A stretch of 44,756 nt of DNA from Spirogloea muscicola (Eukaryota > Streptophyta > Zygnematophyceae > Spirogloeales > Spirogloeaceae): NCBI GenBank assembly GCA_009602725.1, contig WELB01000123.1:165624-210379 (forward strand). The letters run 5' to 3'. A program made the translations under genes and the position numbers. The stretch's first letter is position 1, and every line of letters starts with the position of its first letter. The notes beneath the pieces were generated by a model, which was not told where the DNA came from, did not search any database, and saw nothing but the letters and a program-made list of their open reading frames with translations. This document shows, piece by piece, positions 1 to 32,945 of this stretch.

Positions 1-445
1 CCATGTGTGTCGATGGCCAACGGGAAGAACTCGTCTTCCCGCGGATGATCCGCGTACTTCAGCTCTTTGGCCCGAGCAGCGCAGGCGACCGCATACCCAG
101 CCGTGGTGGCACATTTGGCTGGGTGTGAGCGGTCATAGGCATCAGTAGTCACCACGTCCAGGAGAAGACGTGGCCCGCCGGCCTGTCGGGTGGCCACCAG
201 GTCTACACGCCTGGCATGGAGACCGTCGGCCCTGTGCTGGATTGGCATGATTCCGGAGTTCTCTGCTGCCACGGAGAAACCAGCCTCCAACAGGATGCCA
301 TGCATTACGTCGCGGAGGCGGTCGTGGGCCGCTGTCCGCTCTCCGCCGTGGGAACAGCGCAGAACATGAGCAGCCAGCTCTCCAGGCTCGGTCCCGCGCT
401 CGCCACACTCACATTGACGCACACCCTGGAGACATGGCGGCAGTA
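1..445 (-). mobile_element. Non-LTR retrotransposon fragment: CCHC finger and restriction-like endonuclease (RLE) region, runs off window
   Basis: Read on the minus strand, one open frame runs from about 440 to 1. It starts with a zinc-finger-like C-x-C...H-x4-C block (Q-C-E-C-G ... A-H-V-L-R-C) and continues into an endonuclease-like core with R-R-V-D-L-V, then a G-G-P-R turn and L-L-D-V-V-T-T-D. The same order occurs in the long RT element at 3283-6065 and in the copy at 455-1089, so this is the C-terminal part of the same kind of protein. The 5' part is missing and the C-terminus lies outside the window. It begins directly after the tail of the copy at 455-1089, same orientation, as in a head-to-tail stack. 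No frame break is visible in the part shown. The assignment to an RLE (PD-(D/E)XK-like) rests on motif spacing only. Confidence 0.75.
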
Positions 446-454
446 GGCCCAGGA

Positions 455-1089
455 GCCGGTGGACGAAAAAGGACTACACTACAAAGTGCAAGACGGTGCA
501 GAGGGAGATGCAGATGGCTGCTCAGTATCCACGTGTGAGCAACAGCAGATCAGAGAAACTCGGAGCAGGAGAAGCGGCACTTTGCCGAGACCCGGAAGCA
601 GCAGCCATAGCACGGCCAGCCCGCGCGTGGACCGCATGAGCCAAAGAGCGCTGCAGCGAGACCGCCAGCCTCATCCGAAAGACCTGCAAGAGGGAGCCGG
701 CAGCATTGAAGCCTGGCGAACCCTGCCGCCGCTCGATGGCCTCCCGGGCAAGCCGCTGGAGGAGATCCAACCAGCCACTGCCAAAGGCCCCGTGTACGTC
801 AATGGCCAGTGCCGCGAAGGCATCGCCTGGAGGGTGGTCACAGTACTTGCGCTCCTTACTCCGAGCCGCCAGAGCGACCGCGTGCCCGACGAGCGTCGCG
901 GACTTCGCGGGGTTGGCCGAATCAACGCAATCGGCAGTTACCACATCAGCGATGATGCGCGGACCTCCTCCGGGCGGGATGGCAACGAGGTCCGCGCGGC
1001 GGGTGTGAAGCTGTCCATCGGCGCCCCGCAGGATGGGCATTATCGTGGATTTCTCCACTGCCACCTTGTAGCCAGCCTCCAGGAACACA
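455..1089 (-). mobile_element. Non-LTR retrotransposon 3' end: RLE core, complete C-terminus and 3' tail
   Basis: An uninterrupted 188-codon minus-strand frame ends at 522. It carries the RLE-like core (R-R-A-D-L-V, then G-G-G-P-R and A-D-V-V-T) about 30-50 residues in, a middle block shared with the copies at 6382-6621 and 16587-16835, and the terminal signature S-D-L-L-L-L-T-R-G-Y followed by TGA. The 3' untranslated part (521 down to about 455) contains the GTAGTGTAGTCC block found behind other copies at about 11570, 14470 and (one mismatch) 16545. The 5' truncation point at about 1089 abuts the tail of the copy at 1090-1300. With no RT domain it is a dead, 5'-truncated copy. Confidence 0.85.
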
Positions 1090-1300
1090 GAAGGTCCAAA
1101 GTGGCCGAGAAGCGCTTTCCCAAAGCTTTCCCGGTAAAGAACGTAGCTCTCCTAAAGCAGCTATGGATCACTCAGTAACCCCTGCTAAGCAGCCTCAGGT
1201 CAGAGACGCTAGGCTCCTGGAAGTGGGTCCCTTGGCAGAAGCCAGAGGCAGCAGCGAGGGCTCTGCCGGCCCGCAGGTGCAGCGCGCGGGACATCTCCCA
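1090..1300 (-). mobile_element. Truncated non-LTR retrotransposon end (C-terminus L-L-S-R-G-Y) with tail
   Basis: The minus frame ending at 1172 closes with S-D-L-R-L-L-S-R-G-Y-stop, preceded by a block (H-L-R-A-G-R-A-L-A-A-A-S-G) also present at 6382-6621. Its tail (1171 down to 1090) contains TTTACCGGGAAAGC and a TTCTCGGCCACTT block that recurs on the plus strand at about 14598-14640. The tail is cut after GGACCTT, where the next copy (455-1089) starts. Confidence 0.8.
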
Positions 1301-1440
1301 AAGGGGCGGCGAAGGGCTATGAAGAGCCAGCCAAAAGGAAGCGCGGCCAGATTGACTGGTGGCTGGGAAAGGCCAGCCCAAAGGAATGGACAAGGTCTAG
1401 CCGAAAGGAGCCGAAAGGAGTGGACAATGTCCAACGGAGC
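1301..1440 (-). repeat. Two stacked retrotransposon 3' tails with stem-loops
   Basis: On the minus strand two tail modules follow each other: a CATTCCTTTGGGCTGGCC stem-loop module continuing into CCAGTCAATCTGGCCGCG, then a second GGCTGGCTCTTCATAGCCC stem-loop. Immediately after it the truncated C-terminal coding piece of the copy at 1090-1300 begins. The first module matches 6622-6670 (plus) and 2745-2805 (minus). Confidence 0.7.
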
Positions 1441-1665
1441 TGGAAAGCTTGAAGACCATTATTGATACTGCTCAGCTTTTATTAGTCAGCGGGATGCATG
1501 GGGGTCGCCCCAAGGCCCGCCTTGCGATGAGTCTGCCCGGCGAGGGACCCACGGACTGTCTTTTGCAGGCGTCATGCCTCCAAGCATGGCCTAGGCCGAG
1601 CAGCCGCCAAGCATGGCCGAGGCCGAGCATGCCGCCGAGCATGTCGGGTGCCGAGGCATGCGAAG
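1441..1665 (+). repeat. Dispersed repeat with short GC-rich tandem units; inverted partner at 14080-14300
   Basis: This stretch matches the reverse complement of 14080-14300 over most of its length, including GATGCATGGGGGTCGCCCC and a following CAAGGCCCGCCTTGCGA. At 1570-1640 it holds imperfect tandem units built from GCATGGCCGAGGCCGAGCA. In both places it lies directly 5' of a retrotransposon tail module, so it is probably another part of an element family rather than a gene. Confidence 0.65.
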
Positions 1666-1854
1666 CCACCCGAAGCGTGGACGGGACCAAATGGAACGAG
1701 AACAGCACCAGTGCCAGAGCGGCATGTACCGACCGGCACGAGGCCAACGGCCATATGACCTGGATGAATATTGGTCAATTTCCAATAACTATCTAAATAC
1801 CAAGGGAGCGCTAACATCTCTGCTGGGGCTCGCAGACCTGGGAACGTTACACCA

Positions 1855-1985
1855 CGTGTCAGCACGTACAGGTCGCTAAGTGCTGCCTGACTAGCGAAAA
1901 AGAGAGAAGTGGCTCTCCCAATGGGGGCAAGGGCTCTGAAATGCCAGCACGAAACGATTTGACAAAGGGTCGAAGGGGGCCACAA
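1855..1985 (-). mobile_element. Decayed retrotransposon end behind a tail module
   Basis: In minus orientation a tail module (about 1975 to 1905, with GTGCTGGCATTTCAGAGCCC and TTGGGAGAGCCACTTCTC) runs into a coding scrap S-D-L-Y-V-L-T-R-G-V at about 1890-1855. The usual final Tyr-stop has become Val-Thr, so the stop is lost. The order, old tail then truncated new C-terminus, is the same as at 1301-1090. Confidence 0.6.
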
Positions 1986-2034
1986 TGACGGAGGGGCCTG
2001 AAATTGCTATATCAGAACGGGGTGGAGTATGGAC

Positions 2035-2215
2035 TACTCAGTAGCTACGAGTGAGGAGCCTCTGATACGGCAGACTAGCTGCCGGAAACTCATATCCTGA
2101 AGGAAGCCAGATGCTGCAGCGAGAGCATGGCCAGCACGCAGCGAAAGGCAAATAGCAAGCCCTTCTGCCACTAGCTAAAGCTCGACAAGCTTTCTGGTGC
2201 ACAGGAGGAGCCTGA
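2035..2215 (-). mobile_element. Strongly decayed retrotransposon C-terminal end
   Basis: The minus strand shows a block like the C-terminal coding region of 5830-5968 (CAGAAAGCTTGTCGAGCT compared with CAGAAAGCTGGGCGAGCT), ending near 2035 in CTCGTAGCTACTGA, a corrupted T-R-G-Y-stop. Several frame breaks are present. Confidence 0.45.
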
Positions 2216-2224
2216 GCTCGCTAT

Positions 2225-2500
2225 GGAGAAATTTCGTGTATTTGAAACAAACGTAGGCCAAAACGGCCAAGTACAAAGAAGGCAAGCACATCTGATGACG
2301 TACTACATTCGACCCGCTCAGTAACCACGGGTCAGCCCATAAGGGTCGCTAGTCGATCCCTGAACAGTAGATGGCAGAGTCGAAGCCCTTCTGCAACCGA
2401 GTAGAGCTCGCCCAGCTTTCTGGTGCAAATCATGAGCCTGAGCACGATGTAAACAAAAGAGCCTCAAGGTGTCAAAAAGGAAAAGCACACAGCTAGACAC
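2225..2500 (-). mobile_element. Truncated retrotransposon end, second tail family (same family as the RT element)
   Basis: The minus frame ending at 2318 closes with S-D-P-Y-G-L-T-R-G-Y-stop and shares L-H-Q-K-A-G-R-A-L with the C-terminus of the RT element at 5968. The 3' part (2317 to about 2225) matches the sequence behind 5968: TGAGCGGGTC, GATGTGCTTGCCTT, then a short stem-loop TTGGCCGTTTTGGCCTA and AATACACGA. This is a different tail from the GGGCTGGC type but has a stem-loop in the same place. Confidence 0.8.
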
Positions 2501-2514
2501 TACTGGACCGCAGA

Positions 2515-2600
2515 TGGAATTTTAGTACCCACGAGTGAGCAACAGCAAGTCCAAGTAATGAGAGATTCGTATCCTGCTTTTTGCGCCAGCCGGCCTTTCA
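2515..2600 (-). mobile_element. Very short retrotransposon C-terminal end
   Basis: Only about 12 codons are recognisable on the minus strand: L-D-L-L-L-L-T-R-G-Y followed by TAA at about 2523. It lies immediately 5' (in element direction) of the copy at 2225-2500 and adds one more unit to the head-to-tail series running down to position 1. Confidence 0.6.
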
Positions 2601-3282: not shown

Positions 3283-6065
3283 GAGGGCAGGCCACGCGGC
3301 TCCATTCCAGAAGCGGCGGCCGTCCTGCGGCGCCGCCCAGCGCCGCCCTCTGGCTTTGTCACGCTCTCTCAGCGGCGCGCGCGCAATGGATCAGTCAACC
3401 AGCCCTCTCAACAGTCCACAGCTGGCATTCTAGCGCGCGCAAGACGCTTTGGCAGGGCAGGAGAACTTTCCCGGGCCGCTCAGGCCCTTTGCCCTGACCC
3501 CCTGGTTAGTACCAACGACGCCACAGAGGCTATCTTGCGACAGCTCCACCCCCCTCCACAACACCCCCTTGAGCCCTGGGCCGGCGAGCTCCCCAATCCT
3601 CTTGACCTATCGGCAGAGGCGCTCCGTGTGGCCCTGACCAAAGCCCCCCGAATGGTGTCTGGAGGCCCTTCTGGATGGCTCTTTGAGCACCTACAGGACC
3701 TATTTCTTGACGGAGATGAGAGGAGCTTCTCCCTGTTCCTGTCCACCTGCCGGCACATCGCCAGGGCTGCCATTCCACCACGCATTGCTGATGCCTTAAA
3801 CTCCAGCCACCTGCTAGCCCTTGCAAAGCCAACAGGCGGAGAGACCCATTGCGATGACGGAGGTTGTCATGCGGCTGGTATCAAAGGCCGTGTGCAGCGA
3901 GCTGAAACCCCAGCTGACCAGCCATCTATCACCCCACCAATTTGGTGCTGGCATGTCCTGCGGGGCGGAGGCCCTCATCCACGGCATCCGTGCCGCTCTC
4001 GATGTGGACCCTTCAATGATGGTCCTTGGGCTGGATATCACTAACGCCTTTAATACAGTGGAGCGCAGCGTCATTATGGAGGAGCTGCGCGACCACTTCC
4101 CTTCCCTTATACCCTTTTTCCTCATGGCCTATGGACGCCCACGGCGGCTGCTGTGGCAAGCAGGAGAGTCGTGGAAGACGCTGTGGTCATCTTCTGGCAC
4201 ACGCCAGGGGGATCCCCTTAGCCCAATCCTGTTTGCATTGGCACATTGCCGGGCTATTCGGCGCACCCAGAGCCAACACCCATACCTCCTCTTCCCTTCC
4301 TACGCGGATGACACACACATCATTGGACCTCCAACTGAAGTCATGGCGGCTTACCCCTTGCTCGTTCGCGAACTGGACCTGATGGGCCTGCGGGTTTGCC
4401 CGTCCAAGAGCGTGGCCTGGTCCCCACGCGGTCTCCCTGCCAAGCTTCAGCTCCCCCACGGCTGTCAGACCCCTGCCAATGGGCTGGCCATCCTCAAGGT
4501 CCCCTTCGGTACACCAGCTCACGTGGCGGTGGACTTGCGGGAACGCCTTCAAAAACACCTCGCCCCCCTCCCTTCCCTTCCCCTCCTTGGGGACACGCAG
4601 CTGGCGTTGGCCATCCTCACCCGCTGCATCGGCCAACGGGCTTGCTATCTGCAACGGACAGTTGCCCCATTGGGCATGGTGGCGGAGCTCTACAAGGAAT
4701 ATGATGACTCCCTTCAGCAGTCCCTGGCAGCCCTACTACATTCTTCATCTTTCCCCTCAGCTTCAGCTTCCCTCCAGGCCTCCCTCCCTACTCGCATGGG
4801 CGGCCTTGGCTGCCGGTCGTTGGAGCAGACGGCGCAAGCAGCCTTCCTGGGCTGCTGGCACCAGATCGCCTCCCTGCTCCCCATGCGCTTCCCTTGCCTC
4901 CACGACCCTGTACGCAATGTGGAGGAAGGCTCCTTCCCCTTCCAAGCGGATCTGAGGAGCATCCGCGACTCAGCCATCAGCTCTTTCCCCTCTCTCCAAC
5001 CCCTACTCACGCCATTCTCCACCCTCGCCCAAGCTTCTGATAGAGGGGCACAATCCAGACTGGTTACGGCAGTGGAAGACGAACGCCGCAGAAGGTTGAG
5101 GAGGCTGCCAGAGATTCAGAACAATCCGAGGAGCTTGGCAAGACTCACTTCTCTGGCCACACCTGGTGCCACTGACTGGATCACCTCTCCCCCCGTCGCC
5201 AACGCCTTCAGCATCAGCTCCGAGGCCTTTCGGACATCGCTTCAACTCTTCCTCGGCCTCCCACCTAATTGCCTGATTGGGGTGCGCCAGTGCGAGTGCG
5301 GCTTCCGTGCAGAGGGTGCTGTGCTCGCCACTCACATGCTGAGATGCCCCACTGGACCAGAAGTGGTGGGCATTCACAACCTCCTTCGCGATGCCCTGGC
5401 GGGCTTGATGCGCGACGCCGGCTACCGTGCGGTCGTGGAAGTCAACAATATCATGCCTATCACCACGGACGCCCAGGGACGTCATCATCGCCGCACACTT
5501 GACATTGTGGGCGTGCAACCTGGTGGAGGACCACGGGCCCTGGTCGACGTTGTTGTTACGGAGGCATATAAAGGCCCAGCATCAACACACATTGCTGGGC
5601 ACGCAGTGGGCGGAGCAGAGCAAAGAAAACTGCGGCATTACTCCGATTACCCCCAATGCGATCAACTCCTGCCAGCTGCAATCGACATCTTTGGCTGTCT
5701 GGGTCCTCGCTTCCACACTCTGCTTCAAAACATTGCCAATCTAGGCTACACTCGACGCGCAGATGTGTTTCCGGCTGAGATGGGCTTGCCAGCTGCATAT
5801 CTGTCGCTCTTGCGACGTCGAGTTTCGGCCTGTTTGCAGCGTGCTCAGGCTAGTGCCTTGCACCAGAAAGCTGGGCGAGCTCTAGTAGGTGGCAGAAGGG
5901 CTCCGTTCCTGGCATCTAGTATTCATGCATCGAGTAGTGACCTTTATGTTTTGACCCGTGGTTATTGAGCGGGTCAATCTGCTGTAGGTTATGTAGATTT
6001 TTAGATGTGCTTGCCTTTGTACCTGGCCATTTGGCCTACATTTCTTTCTAATACACGATCTTTCT
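3283..6065 (+). mobile_element. Non-LTR retrotransposon: reverse transcriptase, CCHC finger, RLE and 3' tail; 5'-truncated, one frameshift
   Basis: Coding runs from 3283 in one frame to about 3840, then continues in another frame to the stop at 5966-5968. The switch falls inside the RT block L-A-K-P-T-G-G-E / R-P-I-A-M, in a GAGA run, so it is a small indel. The second frame (715 codons from 3821) shows RT motif A G-L-D-I-T-N-A-F (residues ~70-77), motif B T-R-Q-G-D-P-L-S-P (~127-135) and the catalytic Y-A-D-D (~161-164). A C-x-C...H-x4-C finger follows at ~491-509 and an endonuclease-like core with R-T-L-D-I-V and L-V-D-V-V at ~555-580. It ends S-S-D-L-Y-V-L-T-R-G-Y-stop. RT followed by CCHC and RLE is the layout of R2/R4/CRE-type elements. 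The 3' region (5969-6065) carries a TGGCCATTTGGCCTA stem-loop and AATACACGA, and no poly(A). The usual N-terminal DNA-binding part is absent, so this copy is probably inactive. Confidence 0.9.
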
Positions 6066-6194: not shown

Positions 6195-6300
6195 CTCTGG
6201 GAGTCCAATATTGGGCTGGCTTTTCCAGCCCCTATTTGCAATGGGCGAGCATTTCCGTCGTACTCCGGCTCCTTCAGACCTTGTCCATTCCTTTGGGCTC
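6195..6300 (+). repeat. Retrotransposon 3' tail module
   Basis: A GGGCTGGCTTTTCCAGCCCC stem-loop lies at 6213-6232, followed by ATGGGCGAGCA and then by a second tail start (CAGACCTTGTCCATTCCTTTGGGCT, split here as CAGACCTTGTCC and ATTCCTTTGGGCT). Orientation is plus. Confidence 0.65.
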
Positions 6301-6304
6301 ACAA

Positions 6305-6621
6305 TGAAACCAAGCAGCTACGGATCACTCAGTAACCCCTGCTAAGAAGAAGAAGAAAGTGCTCGCCCATGGAGACCCCTGCTAAGTAAGCAGCTTCAGG
6401 TCTGAGACGCTCGGCTCCTGGAAGTGGGTCCCCTGGCCAGAGCCAGAGGCAGCAGCGAGGGCTCTGCCGGCCCGCAGGTGCAGCGCGCGGGCCATCGACC
6501 GCTGCAGCGAGGCGGCCAAGCGCATCCGGTACACCTGCGCTAACGACCCGGCTGCAGGAAAGTTCACCGGCTCCCCATGGAAGCGACGGGCGATGGCGTG
6601 GCGGGCGAGCCGGGTGAGCAA
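6305..6621 (-). mobile_element. Truncated retrotransposon C-terminal end with a short insertion in its last codons
   Basis: The minus frame from 6621 encodes a block shared with 455-1089 (A-R-R-F-H-G-E-P, L-A-Q-V-Y-R-M-R-L-A, H-L-R-A-G-R-A-L) and reaches S-D-L-K-L-L-T, then an early TAG at about 6382. The expected ending L-L-S-R-G-Y-stop is found about 35-40 bases further on, at 6329-6346. Between them is a repeat of TTAGCAGGGGT plus CATGGGCGAGCACTTTCTTC, which is a piece of the tail module. See the finding on this site. Confidence 0.75.
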
Positions 6622-6675
6622 CTCCTTTGGGCTGGCCTTTCCCAGCCACCAGTCAATCTGGCCGCGCTTCCCTTT
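6622..6675 (+). repeat. Tail module in inverted orientation against the preceding element
   Basis: The plus-strand GGGCTGGCCTTTCCCAGCC stem-loop (6629-6647), continuing CCAGTCAATCTGGCCGCG, touches the 5' truncation end of the minus-strand copy at 6305-6621, a head-to-head junction. The module equals that at 1340-1390 (minus). Confidence 0.6.
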
Positions 6676-12034: not shown

Positions 12035-13512
12035 CAAATGCAATGCACTGGAGACAGGCTAATCATGAAGAGAATCGAGATCACTTTACAAGAACAAAAT
12101 GTGAAATCTTGTCAAGCTACCTGATTGCAGGAAGGCAACAATGCATCGACTTTGACATTGAAGTACAGTCGACAAGTTCAAAGCAAGGTTAGCTACAAAA
12201 GCTTAAGAACAAACCGAGCCACTGGATTATGGTAAGTTTTTCCACCTACTCTTTGAGTAATGTCCATGAGATTGCTACTTTCACTTGATATCTGACCTTT
12301 AAATGCATCAGATGGATGTGTACGGCGTTCTTCAATGGAGATCTGGAGGAAGAACCGTACATGCAACAACAAGAAGGGCAGTTGTGCAGCGACAAGAAGA
12401 TCTCGTCCGCAGGTTGCAGAGTTTGTTGTACGGTCTGAAGCAAGCTCGGAGAGCACGGTACCAACGTCTTGACCACTTTGTATTGCAGAACGGTTTCTTT
12501 AGGTTTTATACTGAGCATAGAATTCGTGCAAAGGGGTCAGGTATAGAGCAACGCATTCTTGCCTAGTACTTGACGATACGGTGATACTTTGCAAGAAAGC
12601 TTTGGAAAACACCAGAGATGTTTTAGCTTCAGAGTCTGGATTGTCAAATTCAGGAGAGGTTAAACAAACATGAGCAATGCAGATTCTAAGAGATCATAAC
12701 GCAAGAATTTTCAAATTGACCAGACTCGGTGTATACTATCTGCTTCTGAGAAGCTTTCCATGCAGGACTGCAAGCCAGTCTCCACACCCCCAGACACAGA
12801 CGTCCATCTTACAGCAAAGATTCTCTGCAGACTGAGAAGAAACCGAAGGGAATGATAGTCCTAACTTACAACCAAGCATTAGGAAACCTGATGTATATCA
12901 TGTGAGGAACTCGCCCAGATGTAGCAGTAGCTGTAACACATATCTGACAAATCATGTCTAAACCTGGCTGGTCTCCTGGATAACCTGTACACGTACCTTT
13001 GAGATATTTGAAAAGGAAATGTACTTATGCATCTTGTCGAAAACAACCTTTTTCGTCAACATCTGTGGTGAGTCGCAGTCCAATATGTTACTTGACATTG
13101 CTGATTTTGACAGGGCTGATCACCTAGACAGCAGACGGTCAACAACCGGTCACATCTTCTTGATGACTGGGAAAGCCGCTGTCTTGGAGCAGAAGAAGCA
13201 AGCCTCAGTCGCACGGTCAACAAGTGAAGCAGAGCAGATGGCAGCTCCACACTCGTTCCAAGAAGCATAATGACTCAGACGACTATTGCTGTAACTCGGA
13301 TTCCATCGACCATCTACTACAGTAAGTACCGATTCACAGGGCAGCTTTGTACTGATTGCTCATTCAGGTCTCCACTCGCCTACCAAGCACATTGAGTTTC
13401 TACATCATTCGGTCAGAGACCATGTACAACAGAGTGTAGTATGTAACAAGTACTGTACTACAGCAGTTCAGGTGGCGGATATGCTGACCAAGGCTATTCA
13501 AAGTTAAGTCTG
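12035..13512 (+). mobile_element. Ty1/copia retrotransposon, 5'-truncated: RT and RNase H regions
   Basis: With several frame breaks, the plus strand gives the RT start W-R-Q-A-N-H-E-E-N (about 12050), V-D-K-F-K-A-R-L-A-T (about 12168), F-F-N-G-D-L-E-E-E-P-Y-M-Q-Q (about 12328), L-L-Y-G-L-K-Q-A (about 12425) and a corrupted Y-L-D-D (about 12570). RNase H follows with D-S-R-R-S-T-T-G-H-I-F (about 13130) and A-R-S-T-S-E-A-E-Q-M-A (about 13215). The normal copia ending T-K-H-I-E-F, V-A-D-M-L-T-K-A lies at 13383-13500, with a stop about 13507. A purine-rich tract (CCAAGGAGGAG, 13552-13562) precedes the LTR. Gag, protease, integrase and the 5' LTR are absent. Confidence 0.9.
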
Positions 13513-14079: not shown

Positions 14080-14300
14080 CATTGGGTGGACAGCGCAGCA
14101 CCTGCGACATGCTCGGCGGCATGCTCGGCCTCGGCCATGCTTGGCGGTATGCTCGGCCTCGGCCATGCTCGGCGGCATGACGCCTGCAGGATATCCATGA
14201 ATCCCTCATGGGGCACGCTCCTCGCAAGGCGGGCCTTGGGGCGACCCCCATGCATCCCGCTGACTCAAAAAAGCTGAGCAGTTTCGATGACTGTCTTCAA
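14080..14300 (-). repeat. Inverted copy of the repeat at 1441-1665, with a GC-rich tandem array
   Basis: The tandem part (about 14105-14180) repeats ATGCTCGGCCTCGGCCATGC two to three times with small changes. The rest matches the reverse complement of 1445-1560. Confidence 0.7.
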
Positions 14301-14860
14301 ACTTTCCAGATCCGTTGAACATTGTCCACTCCTTTCGGCTGGCTCTTCACAGCCCTCCGCCGCCCTTTTAATAGTGCCGCTTTTCCTGCTCCGAGTTACT
14401 CTGATCTGCTGTTGCTCACACGTGGTTACTGAGCATCCATCTGCATCTCCCTCTGCACCGTCTTGCACTTTGTAGTGTAGTCCTTATTCGGCACTTCTTT
14501 CTTTGGCTTTGAACATTGTGCATTCTTTTTGGGCTGGCTTCGCCAGCCCCTCTTCTCTATGGGCGGGCAATCTCTTTCTTTTATAGAGGCAAATTCTTTT
14601 ACCGGGAAAGCTTCGGGAAAGCGCTTCTCGGCCACTTCTGGACCTTGTCTATTCGTTTCGGGCTGGCTGACAGCCCTCGCCCCCTTTGGGAGAGCCACTT
14701 CCTGATTGTGCTGGCCTTTCACAGCCGTAGCCCCTCCTTGAGTAGAGCTTACAGTCATTTGAAGGCAGGCTTTCCACAGCCTCGCTCCTGCTGGAGCTTT
14801 CGTTTGTGCTTATACTTGGATAAGCTGCTTCCGTCTCTTATTCCCTCCCAAGAAAAGGAA
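14301..14860 (+). mobile_element. Head-to-tail stack of retrotransposon 3' ends and tails
   Basis: Five tail-like modules follow each other on the plus strand. (1) CACTCCTTTCGGCTGGCTC with a CACAGCCC arm (to about 14365). (2) A truncated C-terminus S-A-A-F-P-A-P-S-Y-S-D-L-L-L-L-T-R-G-Y-stop (to about 14430), with its 3' region, GTAGTGTAGTCC and hairpin GGGCTGGC-TTC-GCCAGCCC at 14531-14549. (3) TTTTACCGGGAAAGC...GGACCTTGTC with hairpin at 14660-14676 and GGGAGAGCCACTTCC. (4) GTGCTGGCCTTTCACAGCC (from about 14709). (5) AGGCTTTCCACAGCC (from about 14767). Each starts where the previous tail stops. C-terminal wording identical to the copy at 16587-16835 supports one family. Confidence 0.8.
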
Positions 14861-16199: not shown

Positions 16200-16445
16200 C
16201 GATTGATGAGAAGATGGCACTCCCAAGGGGGCAAGGCCTTCTAACAGCCAGCCGAATGGAATTGACAAGGTCCGAACAGGCCGAACAGCGCTGAAAGACA
16301 TGAGCAAGCAAGGAGCATGTAGGACAGTCGCTTAGAACTCTTCATTTAGTACCCGCAAGTTAGCGCATTGCCCCGACACCAGTGATTTGTAAAGCTCGAT
16401 TGACCTCCCTTTTATATCATATGCACGGCGCGCATCTCTCTTTGC
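16200..16445 (-). repeat. Minus-strand tail and a decayed element end
   Basis: 16210-16285 is a minus-strand tail (CGGACCTTGTCAATTCCATT, CGGCTGGCTGTTAGAAGGCC, TTGGGAGTGCC). At about 16375-16352 the minus strand shows L-T-C-G-Y-stop, a decayed T-R-G-Y ending. Confidence 0.5.
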
Positions 16446-16835
16446 CCCTAAGAAAAGAAAGTGCCCGCTCACAAAGAAGAGGGGCTGGCAAAGCCAACCC
16501 AAAAGAATGAACAATTTTCAAAGCCAAAGAAAGAAGGACTATACTACAAAGAGCAAGATGGTGCAGAGGAAGATGCAGATGGATGCTCAGTATCCACGTG
16601 TGAGCAACAGCAGATCAGAGTAACTCGGAGCAGGAAAAGCGGCACTCTGCCGAGACCCGGAAGCAGCAGCCATAGCACGGCCAGCGCGCGCGTGGACCGC
16701 GTGAGGCAAATAGCGCTGTAGCGAGACCGCCAGCCTCATCCGAAAGACCTGCGCGAGGGAGCCGGCAGCATTGAAGCCTGGCGAACCCTGCCGCCGCTCG
16801 ATGGCCTCCCGGGCAAGCCGCTGGAGGAGAATCAA
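16446..16835 (-). mobile_element. Truncated retrotransposon end with tail
   Basis: The minus frame 16835-16587 carries the shared C-terminal block (A-I-E-R-R-Q-G-S-P-G-F-N-A-A, F-R-M-R-L-A-V-S-L-Q-R, H-A-R-A-G-R-A-M) and ends Y-S-D-L-L-L-L-T-R-G-Y-stop. The 3' region runs to a hairpin GGGTTGGC-TTT-GCCAGCCC (16482-16500, minus) and GTGAGCGGGCACTTTCTTTT. It is nearly identical in sequence to 455-840 and therefore a recent copy. Confidence 0.85.
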
Positions 16836-16967
16836 CCAGCTCTTTGCCCCTAAGAAAAGGAATGCGGTTGCCGATATGTAAAGTGCAGCTGTAAAAGCCA
16901 GCCAGGTGTTACGCTTCCCACTGTGTGAACGTCAGCCCAGGTGGTTACGCTGACCTGATTGGCACGT

Positions 16968-32150: not shown

Positions 32151-32221
32151 TGCGCCGCCGGGGAATCGAACCCCGGTCAGTACCGTGGGAGGGTACTATG
32201 ATACCACTACACCAGCGGCGC
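32151..32221 (-). tRNA. tRNA-Gly (anticodon CCC)
   Basis: The minus strand folds into a complete cloverleaf. The acceptor is GCGCCGC paired with GCGGCGC plus discriminator A, the D arm lies in TGGTGTAGTGGTATCAT, the anticodon stem is GTACC/GGTAC with loop CTCCCAC (anticodon CCC, reading GGG), and the T arm is CGGGG-TTCGATT-CCCCG. The internal A box (TGGTGTAGTGG) and B box (GGTTCGATTCC) are intact and there is no intron. A run of six T on the minus strand (32121-32126) about 25 bases downstream can serve as the pol III terminator. CCA is not encoded, as usual for a nuclear gene. Confidence 0.96.
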
Positions 32222-32699: not shown

Positions 32700-32945
32700 T
32701 CCAGTTGTTGTGAGCTTTGAAAGGGCTTGCGTCTTTCTCCGGGTCTCGGCGGAGTGCCTCCTTCCCTGCCTCGAGCTACTCGGACCTGATGTTGCTCACT
32801 CGCGGGTACTGAGCTTCCCTAGTATGTTGTCGTGATTGGTAGAGTAGAGGAGTCCTTCCTCGGCTTCTCATTCTTCGGCTTTGGACATTGTCCATTCTTT
32901 TTGGGCTGGCTTTGCCAGCCCCTCTTTCTTTATGGGCGAGCCTTC
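32700..32945 (+). mobile_element. Truncated retrotransposon end with perfect tail stem-loop
   Basis: The plus strand encodes S-G-S-R-R-S-A-S-F-P-A-S-S-Y-S-D-L-M-L-L (split before T-R-G-Y-stop, ending about 32811), parallel to S-G-S-R-Q-S-A-A-F-P-A-P-S-Y-S-D of 16587-16835. The 3' region leads to CTTTGGACATTGTCCATTC, the hairpin GGGCTGGC-TTT-GCCAGCCC (32903-32921) and TATGGGCGAGCC. Confidence 0.8.

Follow-up and report, generated by a model that had tools for sequence, protein, structure and literature searches.

The stretch of DNA analysed here, called the window below, comprises 44,756 nucleotides of Spirogloea muscicola (contig WELB01000123.1 of assembly GCA_009602725.1, positions 165,624 to 210,379 of the forward strand), and the minus strand of its first 2,600 positions is crowded with broken ends of long interspersed nuclear elements (LINEs), sorted by us into nine kinds of pieces, among them families A, B and F3. 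Taken together, these pieces are probably 5′-truncated copies of several LINE families with a restriction-like endonuclease (RLE) that insert by target-primed reverse transcription (TPRT) at a short pyrimidine motif, approximately CYCTYTT and similar to their own 3′ terminus (the termini read ..CACTTTCT, ..CACCTTCT and ..GATCTCTTTCT). The copies are truncated at the 5′ end, duplications flanking them begin with the motif, the tails carry the motif asymmetrically between the strands, and sense element ends are enriched beside the insertion points. The motif at the duplication is supported as the best common factor of the insertions and draws antisense insertions as well.

At 21 sites the copies are flanked by target-site duplications, about 7-23 bp long, with the motif at their start; these are 21 of the 51 copies for which both junctions were readable, and the duplications score at least 7, a level seen in 4.3% of mismatched pairs. 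Along with a fixed 3′ end and variable 5′ truncation, the clear duplications in 21 of 51 copies are the marks of TPRT insertion. Pyrimidines occupy each of the first five duplication positions in 17-21 of the 21 sites, as compared with 7-15 of the 21 at the majority of positions farther off. For limiting circularity, a strict motif matrix was made from 11 sites, after removing the 10 that lie in, or possibly in, sense tails. With this matrix, three of four tail groups are above background in sense, with 43.5 (A), 22.7 (F3) and 17.8 (other) matches per kb as compared with 8.5 and 6.6 in the flanks, and the antisense strand of all tails gave 0 matches in 10,334 positions. A looser matrix of all 21 sites, which is partly circular, matched the sense strand of the B, A and F3 tails 96-169 times per kb and their antisense strand 0.4-7.1 times per kb (B tails: 96 and 0.4, respectively), with 31.3 and 29.8 in the flanks. 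The six points at which hosts were cut in the window were scored over a stretch that takes in a few inserted-element bases, and at 5 of them the motif score is one that no more than 5.6% of flank positions attain (combined p about 1e-4).

The same sites are also hit repeatedly. The A-tail site TAGTCCTTTTTC is hit twice, at window 465 and in locus L013, where an F3 end with the duplication TCCTTTTTCAG lies inside an A tail exactly where the window copy is cut; similarly, CCCTTT of a repeat called Z is hit by F3 at window 1294 and by A at 14373. On the antisense strand of B, CCCTTYTGCC is hit three times (loci L040, L044 and L059), L044 being less clean, with antisense B as its upstream flank and sense coding of another family as its downstream flank. 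Such repeated antisense hits are predicted by a rule based on the motif and not by a rule based on tails. Locus L034 was considered as a further insertion in the A-tail site and rejected, as both facing tails are broken and a rearrangement is more likely when judged by eye. The window also has a clean example of an insertion, an A-family copy (16455-16840, within 16430-16865, minus strand) that has a duplication on its two sides, about 20 bases long and containing CTTTTCTTAGGGGCAAAGAG. Two hairpins were seen in the tails by eye. When 11 tails were folded to look for a common RNA structure, 8 pairs resulted, none of them with a change kept on both sides, and such a structure was rejected as being without covariation support.

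We then compare the flanks of the insertions. Loci around 3′ ends of A, B and F3 numbered 66 (29, 29 and 8), and 55 of them were usable (20, 29 and 6), the other 11 having broken tails, N runs, an unclear anchor or end, or being a repeat of another locus. The flanks were matched to a library of 108 sequences of element ends taken from the fetched loci only, and the distal flanks at 0.9-1.2 kb of the same loci served as a local background. Sense element 3′ regions make up 25.2% of the first 200 bp of the downstream flank and 11.6% at 0.9-1.2 kb (paired p 0.015, n=55), while antisense element 3′ regions show no excess in the same 55 loci (13.1% vs 14.5%, difference not significant). On dividing the junctions by their next 150 bases, we found 18 sense, 9 antisense and 28 with neither, the last class being overstated by the limited library, and at 1 kb the corresponding numbers are 7, 12 and 36. 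These counts support a preference of about twofold for sense element ends, which are not required, up to half of the insertions lying elsewhere.

The orientation bias is seen genome-wide. The assembly (153 Mb, 471 contigs) was scanned with three disjoint patterns of the C-terminal element motif, which matched 3,604, 1,217 and 3,532 places (at most 3 in the reversed control), a total of 8,353 pattern-matched ends or one per 18 kb with the two strands nearly equal. At a spacing of about 200-260 bases there are 190 same-strand and 101 divergent pairs (one-sided p 1e-7), a count that takes these two classes only, at one spacing, and for which random orientation would give equal numbers but geometry may differ between the classes. 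A pair analysis of 229 ends among the matches listed, on contig C1 and the first 1.63 Mb of contig C2, gave 44 neighbour pairs at most 1 kb apart as against 12.8 expected under uniform spread, with 31 on the same strand and 13 on opposite strands (p 0.005). Given a twofold bias and thousands of copies, the one-orientation run in the window, which was chosen by eye, is unremarkable.

The class of the elements was read from their coding ends. The conserved C-terminal motif (L)TRGY with a stop codon is clear five times in positions 1-2600 and twelve times in the whole window. The B element that we use as the reference copy (3821-6062, plus strand, 3′ end near 6062) has a reverse transcriptase (RT), an RLE and LTRGY-stop; its RT is of the kind without long terminal repeats (PF00078, E 1.1e-15, window 3821-5965) and matches R2 protein chains in the PDB weakly (E 0.001-0.009). 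RLE LINEs have a catalytic PD-(D/E)XK variant whose K is within a KX2KY motif, as given in the available part of the source (PMC5678591). When read by eye, the catalytic residues of A are RRADLV, IADVV and KERKY, which is the pattern D..D..KX2KY, and those of B are LDIVG, VDVVV and KLRHY, with the second K replaced, so the RLE-type coding proposed in the initial annotation of this stretch is borne out by the catalytic pattern of both. The CCHC knuckle of B, also read by eye, has its ligands in place with a different spacing, being CX1C, 11 residues, H, X3 and C as against the published CX2-3CX7-8HX4C.

The pile in 1-2600 is real, as both motif anchors and similarity locate the many truncated minus-strand ends reported initially, but it is nested more than stacked, and nesting inside hosts fits most of the readable junctions of the window. 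Element X (2456-2558), identified by motif anchor, similarity and sequence, has a C-terminus with LTRGY-stop (motif 2539-2522) and a tail cut at 2456. Next to it lies B1 (2229-2455, motif 2335-2318), a 5′-truncated B-like element with 81% similarity to L015 and a complete 3′ end (..AATACACGA..), which forms an inverted repeat with window 5831-5975 and adjoins, within a few bases and without clear duplication, the truncated start of another B-like element, B2. The latter is in two halves (2140-2222 and 1851-1899, cut again near 1851) that are separated by element Y (1900-2139, motif LTRSY-stop at 2055-2038, 3′ end complete), and the 7-bp duplication TTTCGCT flanks Y at 2146-2140 and 1899-1893. 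On removing Y and one TTTCGCT copy, the joined flanks align to B coding (window 5838-5970, plus strand); therefore, of the two ends near 2035 and 1855 that were taken earlier for separate stacked copies, the first is an insert and the second belongs to the element that received it. Repeat Z (1295-1651), the next assigned piece after B2, which ends at 1851, has a hairpin-type tail and another copy at window 14098-14372 (plus strand), and is classed here as a repeat rather than as a LINE. It is split by F5 (1340-1398), a 3′ end of 59 bp that lies inside the Z tail with the duplication TCCTTTYGGCT at 1409-1399 and 1339-1329 (the rejoined site is 10 bases longer than the plus-strand Z copy), and is cut by F3 near CCCTTTGGGAG.

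Element F3 (1154-1294) has the coding end LSRGY-stop (1189-1172) and its tail is cut at 1154, followed by tail piece V (1090-1153), which is like window 14598-14654 (plus strand) and is cut after GGACCTTC at 1090. The junction at 1089/1090 was described correctly before, with the tail cut after GGACCTT(C) and the coding of the next element beginning directly. That element, A (465-1089), has RLE coding and LTRGY-stop (539-522), and with its tail cut at 465 it is without about 85 bp of tail that other A copies have. Element Q (1-464) has RLE-type coding with 86% similarity to C20:845828-846292 and 69% to A copies, and continues past the window edge into an N run of the assembly of about 1.8 kb, which starts 27 bases outside window base 1 (L069) and makes the last copy and the far side of the nest unreadable. 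At least three pieces (Z, F5 and V) were missing from the seven copies listed at first. The claim that every copy begins at the end of the preceding tail is not confirmed: positions 2523, 2318, about 2035, 1172 and 522 coincide to within a few bases with the ends of (L)TRGY-stop motifs and not of tails, and the tails of X, F3, V and A are cut internally. As to the shared orientation, every identified end in 1-2600 is indeed on the minus strand, but a plus-strand tail starts at about 2598 and window 6211-6671 holds the same kinds of pieces in mixed orientation.

Some other features lie in the window or were met among the fetched loci. The 3′ end of a LINE family at 32795-32945 (plus strand) occurs with 100% identity at 39 of the 40 genome places that score best, the window's own included, and judging by this identity the family is recently active. 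A tRNA-Gly (CCC) gene is present at 32151-32221 (minus strand), about 0.6 kb from a LINE end. Window 12200-13500 (plus strand) resembles by eye the decayed remains, with stop codons, of a copia-type retrotransposon. Near-identical Ty3/Gypsy-like copies (L001-L008), with open frames of 1,172-1,237 codons, were found on several contigs, the copies read being L002 and L007.

In the mechanism that we propose for insertion at the pyrimidine motif, the RLE would nick opposite the motif, in the purine-rich strand, and the 3′ DNA end, also rich in purines, would pair with the element RNA at its pyrimidine end and prime there. Since it is chiefly the sense strand of a tail that has the motif, an insertion into a tail would then tend to take the orientation of its host and add new sense motifs beside the old tail, and same-strand nests would grow. 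Where the motif is on the antisense strand, for example as GCCCTTCTGCCACC opposite B coding, antisense insertion would be expected. A wider proposal, which we make tentatively and hold to be rather doubtful at present, is that the target is set by the element RNA itself, whose 3′ end would pair with this pyrimidine motif in DNA, whereby tails, packed with the motif on one strand, would be self-renewing landing pads and several RLE LINE families would form oriented nests in one another genome-wide without a dedicated host target.

The initial annotation had explained the pile by targeting of the elements' own 3′ tails. In its strict form, as in Zepp, the machinery would recognise 3′ tails as such and copies would be added head to tail, Zepp clusters being nested insertions that give 3′-end arrays in the available text (PMC8226300). 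The preference part of this claim is upheld by the sense 3′ regions enriched at the junctions (25.2% vs 11.6%) and by the excess of same-strand pairs (190 vs 101). Yet a strict rule is unlikely, because 28 of the 55 junctions are without an adjoining element 3′ region (an upper figure, the library being incomplete) and 9 are antisense, one host in the window is coding and not tail, and the copies are numerous and spread along C1 and C2. We hold the opposite explanation to be just as improbable, namely that there is no targeting at all and abundant elements insert everywhere, with old repeat-rich ground gathering nests and one-strand runs arising by chance or regional asymmetry. The mixed orientation at window 6211-6671, the long-range same-strand bias and the near balance of same-family neighbours in two similarity listings (9:8 and 3:4) would all be expected from it, but the sense-only enrichment within 200 bp relative to 0.9-1.2 kb of the same loci, the pyrimidine motif at the duplications and the 190 vs 101 pairs would not. 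R2-type enzymes make end-to-end template jumps. An RT switching from one RNA to the 3′ end of another during one insertion could produce a chimeric same-strand string. Such jumping may be the source of the B1-B2 join, where a complete 3′ end abuts a truncated start without clear duplication, but for the pile it is very improbable, as it predicts complete upstream tails while four element tails are cut internally, and two nested copies carry duplications. An assembly artefact, with repeats collapsed or misjoined at the gap edge, is suggested by the N run next to window base 1 and is equally remote: the pieces are of different kinds, the duplications are coherent and nests are present in other fetched loci too (e.g. 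L013, L017 and L029).

Insertion at the pyrimidine motif, with its preference for sense tails, also has results against it. At the stringency of a score of at least 7, 30 of the 51 copies are without a duplication; B tails have only 3.6 matches per kb in sense with the strict matrix, which is below background; the F3 cut at 1154 is without the motif; and the cut points are weaker when scored within their own hosts, where the share of positions with an equally high score is 23%, 96%, 0%, 20%, 15% and 0% (combined p 0.004). The sense to antisense ratio at the junctions, 18:9, has p 0.06 when taken alone. In the pair analysis, the same-strand excess is still present out to 20 kb (102:60), which makes a regional contribution likely, and the step from near to far pairs (31:13 vs 71:47) is not significant (p 0.15). 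Same-family neighbours lean only slightly to the same strand by eye (19 same vs 13 opposite of 32), a count that pools four similarity listings (9:8, 3:4, 2:0 and 5:1, one further listing being left out) and includes three in the 5:1 set that look like copies of one place. In one region of C1, at about 1.30-1.69 Mb, 22 of the 23 LINE ends listed are on the minus strand.

Among known systems, Zepp inserts in a nested manner into existing copies and gives arrays mostly of 3′ ends, as described in the available parts of the reports (PMC8226300, PMC3446292), and the comparison made initially is apt in form. Here also, as in Zepp of Chlorella and Coccomyxa and ZeppL of Chlamydomonas, copies nest in existing copies, 5′ truncation is frequent and the arrays are mostly 3′ ends, albeit as a preference rather than a rule. 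A difference is that several RLE-type families are involved and are dispersed: the same accounts place Zepp among L1 LINEs, here a C-terminal RLE pattern is present, and instead of about one Zepp cluster per chromosome we have 8,353 matches in 153 Mb, spread along C1 and C2. With RLE LINEs such as R2, NeSL, HERO, CRE and the U2-targeting Utopia, the elements share the weak RT match to R2 and the D..D..KX2KY of A, but the CCHC spacing differs from the published one. A microsatellite preference is reported for HERO families in the accessible text (PMC4640811). No fixed gene target turned up here, though no search aimed at one was made, and in the scan of the window at the Rfam gathering score one tRNA is the only match. 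GilM/GilT, MoTeR and FoTeR form one-orientation arrays. In the portions available, MoTeR1 of the blast fungus and FoTeR of Fusarium have a restriction-enzyme-like endonuclease and telomere-like repeats at their ends (PMC7367193, PMC12857005), and the telomeric elements of Giardia are mentioned (PMC10088271). These are likewise LINEs tied to a repeated target, which for them is in telomere repeats, unlike the pyrimidine motif present here in the elements' own tails and elsewhere. We found no report of an RLE LINE with such tail-nesting in the accessible text of the open-licence literature. The result is mostly one of natural history for LINE specialists and not a new kind of system; if true, it would tie the choice of target in RLE elements to pairing between RNA and DNA, and such elements are now being tried as tools for gene insertion. 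Nested 3′-end arrays are known from Zepp, oriented nests of this kind being described for centromeric Zepp-like LINEs in the accounts at hand, and a motif common to target and tail, if true, could predict the place and orientation of a pile-up, while the dispersed and apparently motif-driven RLE form seems to be new.

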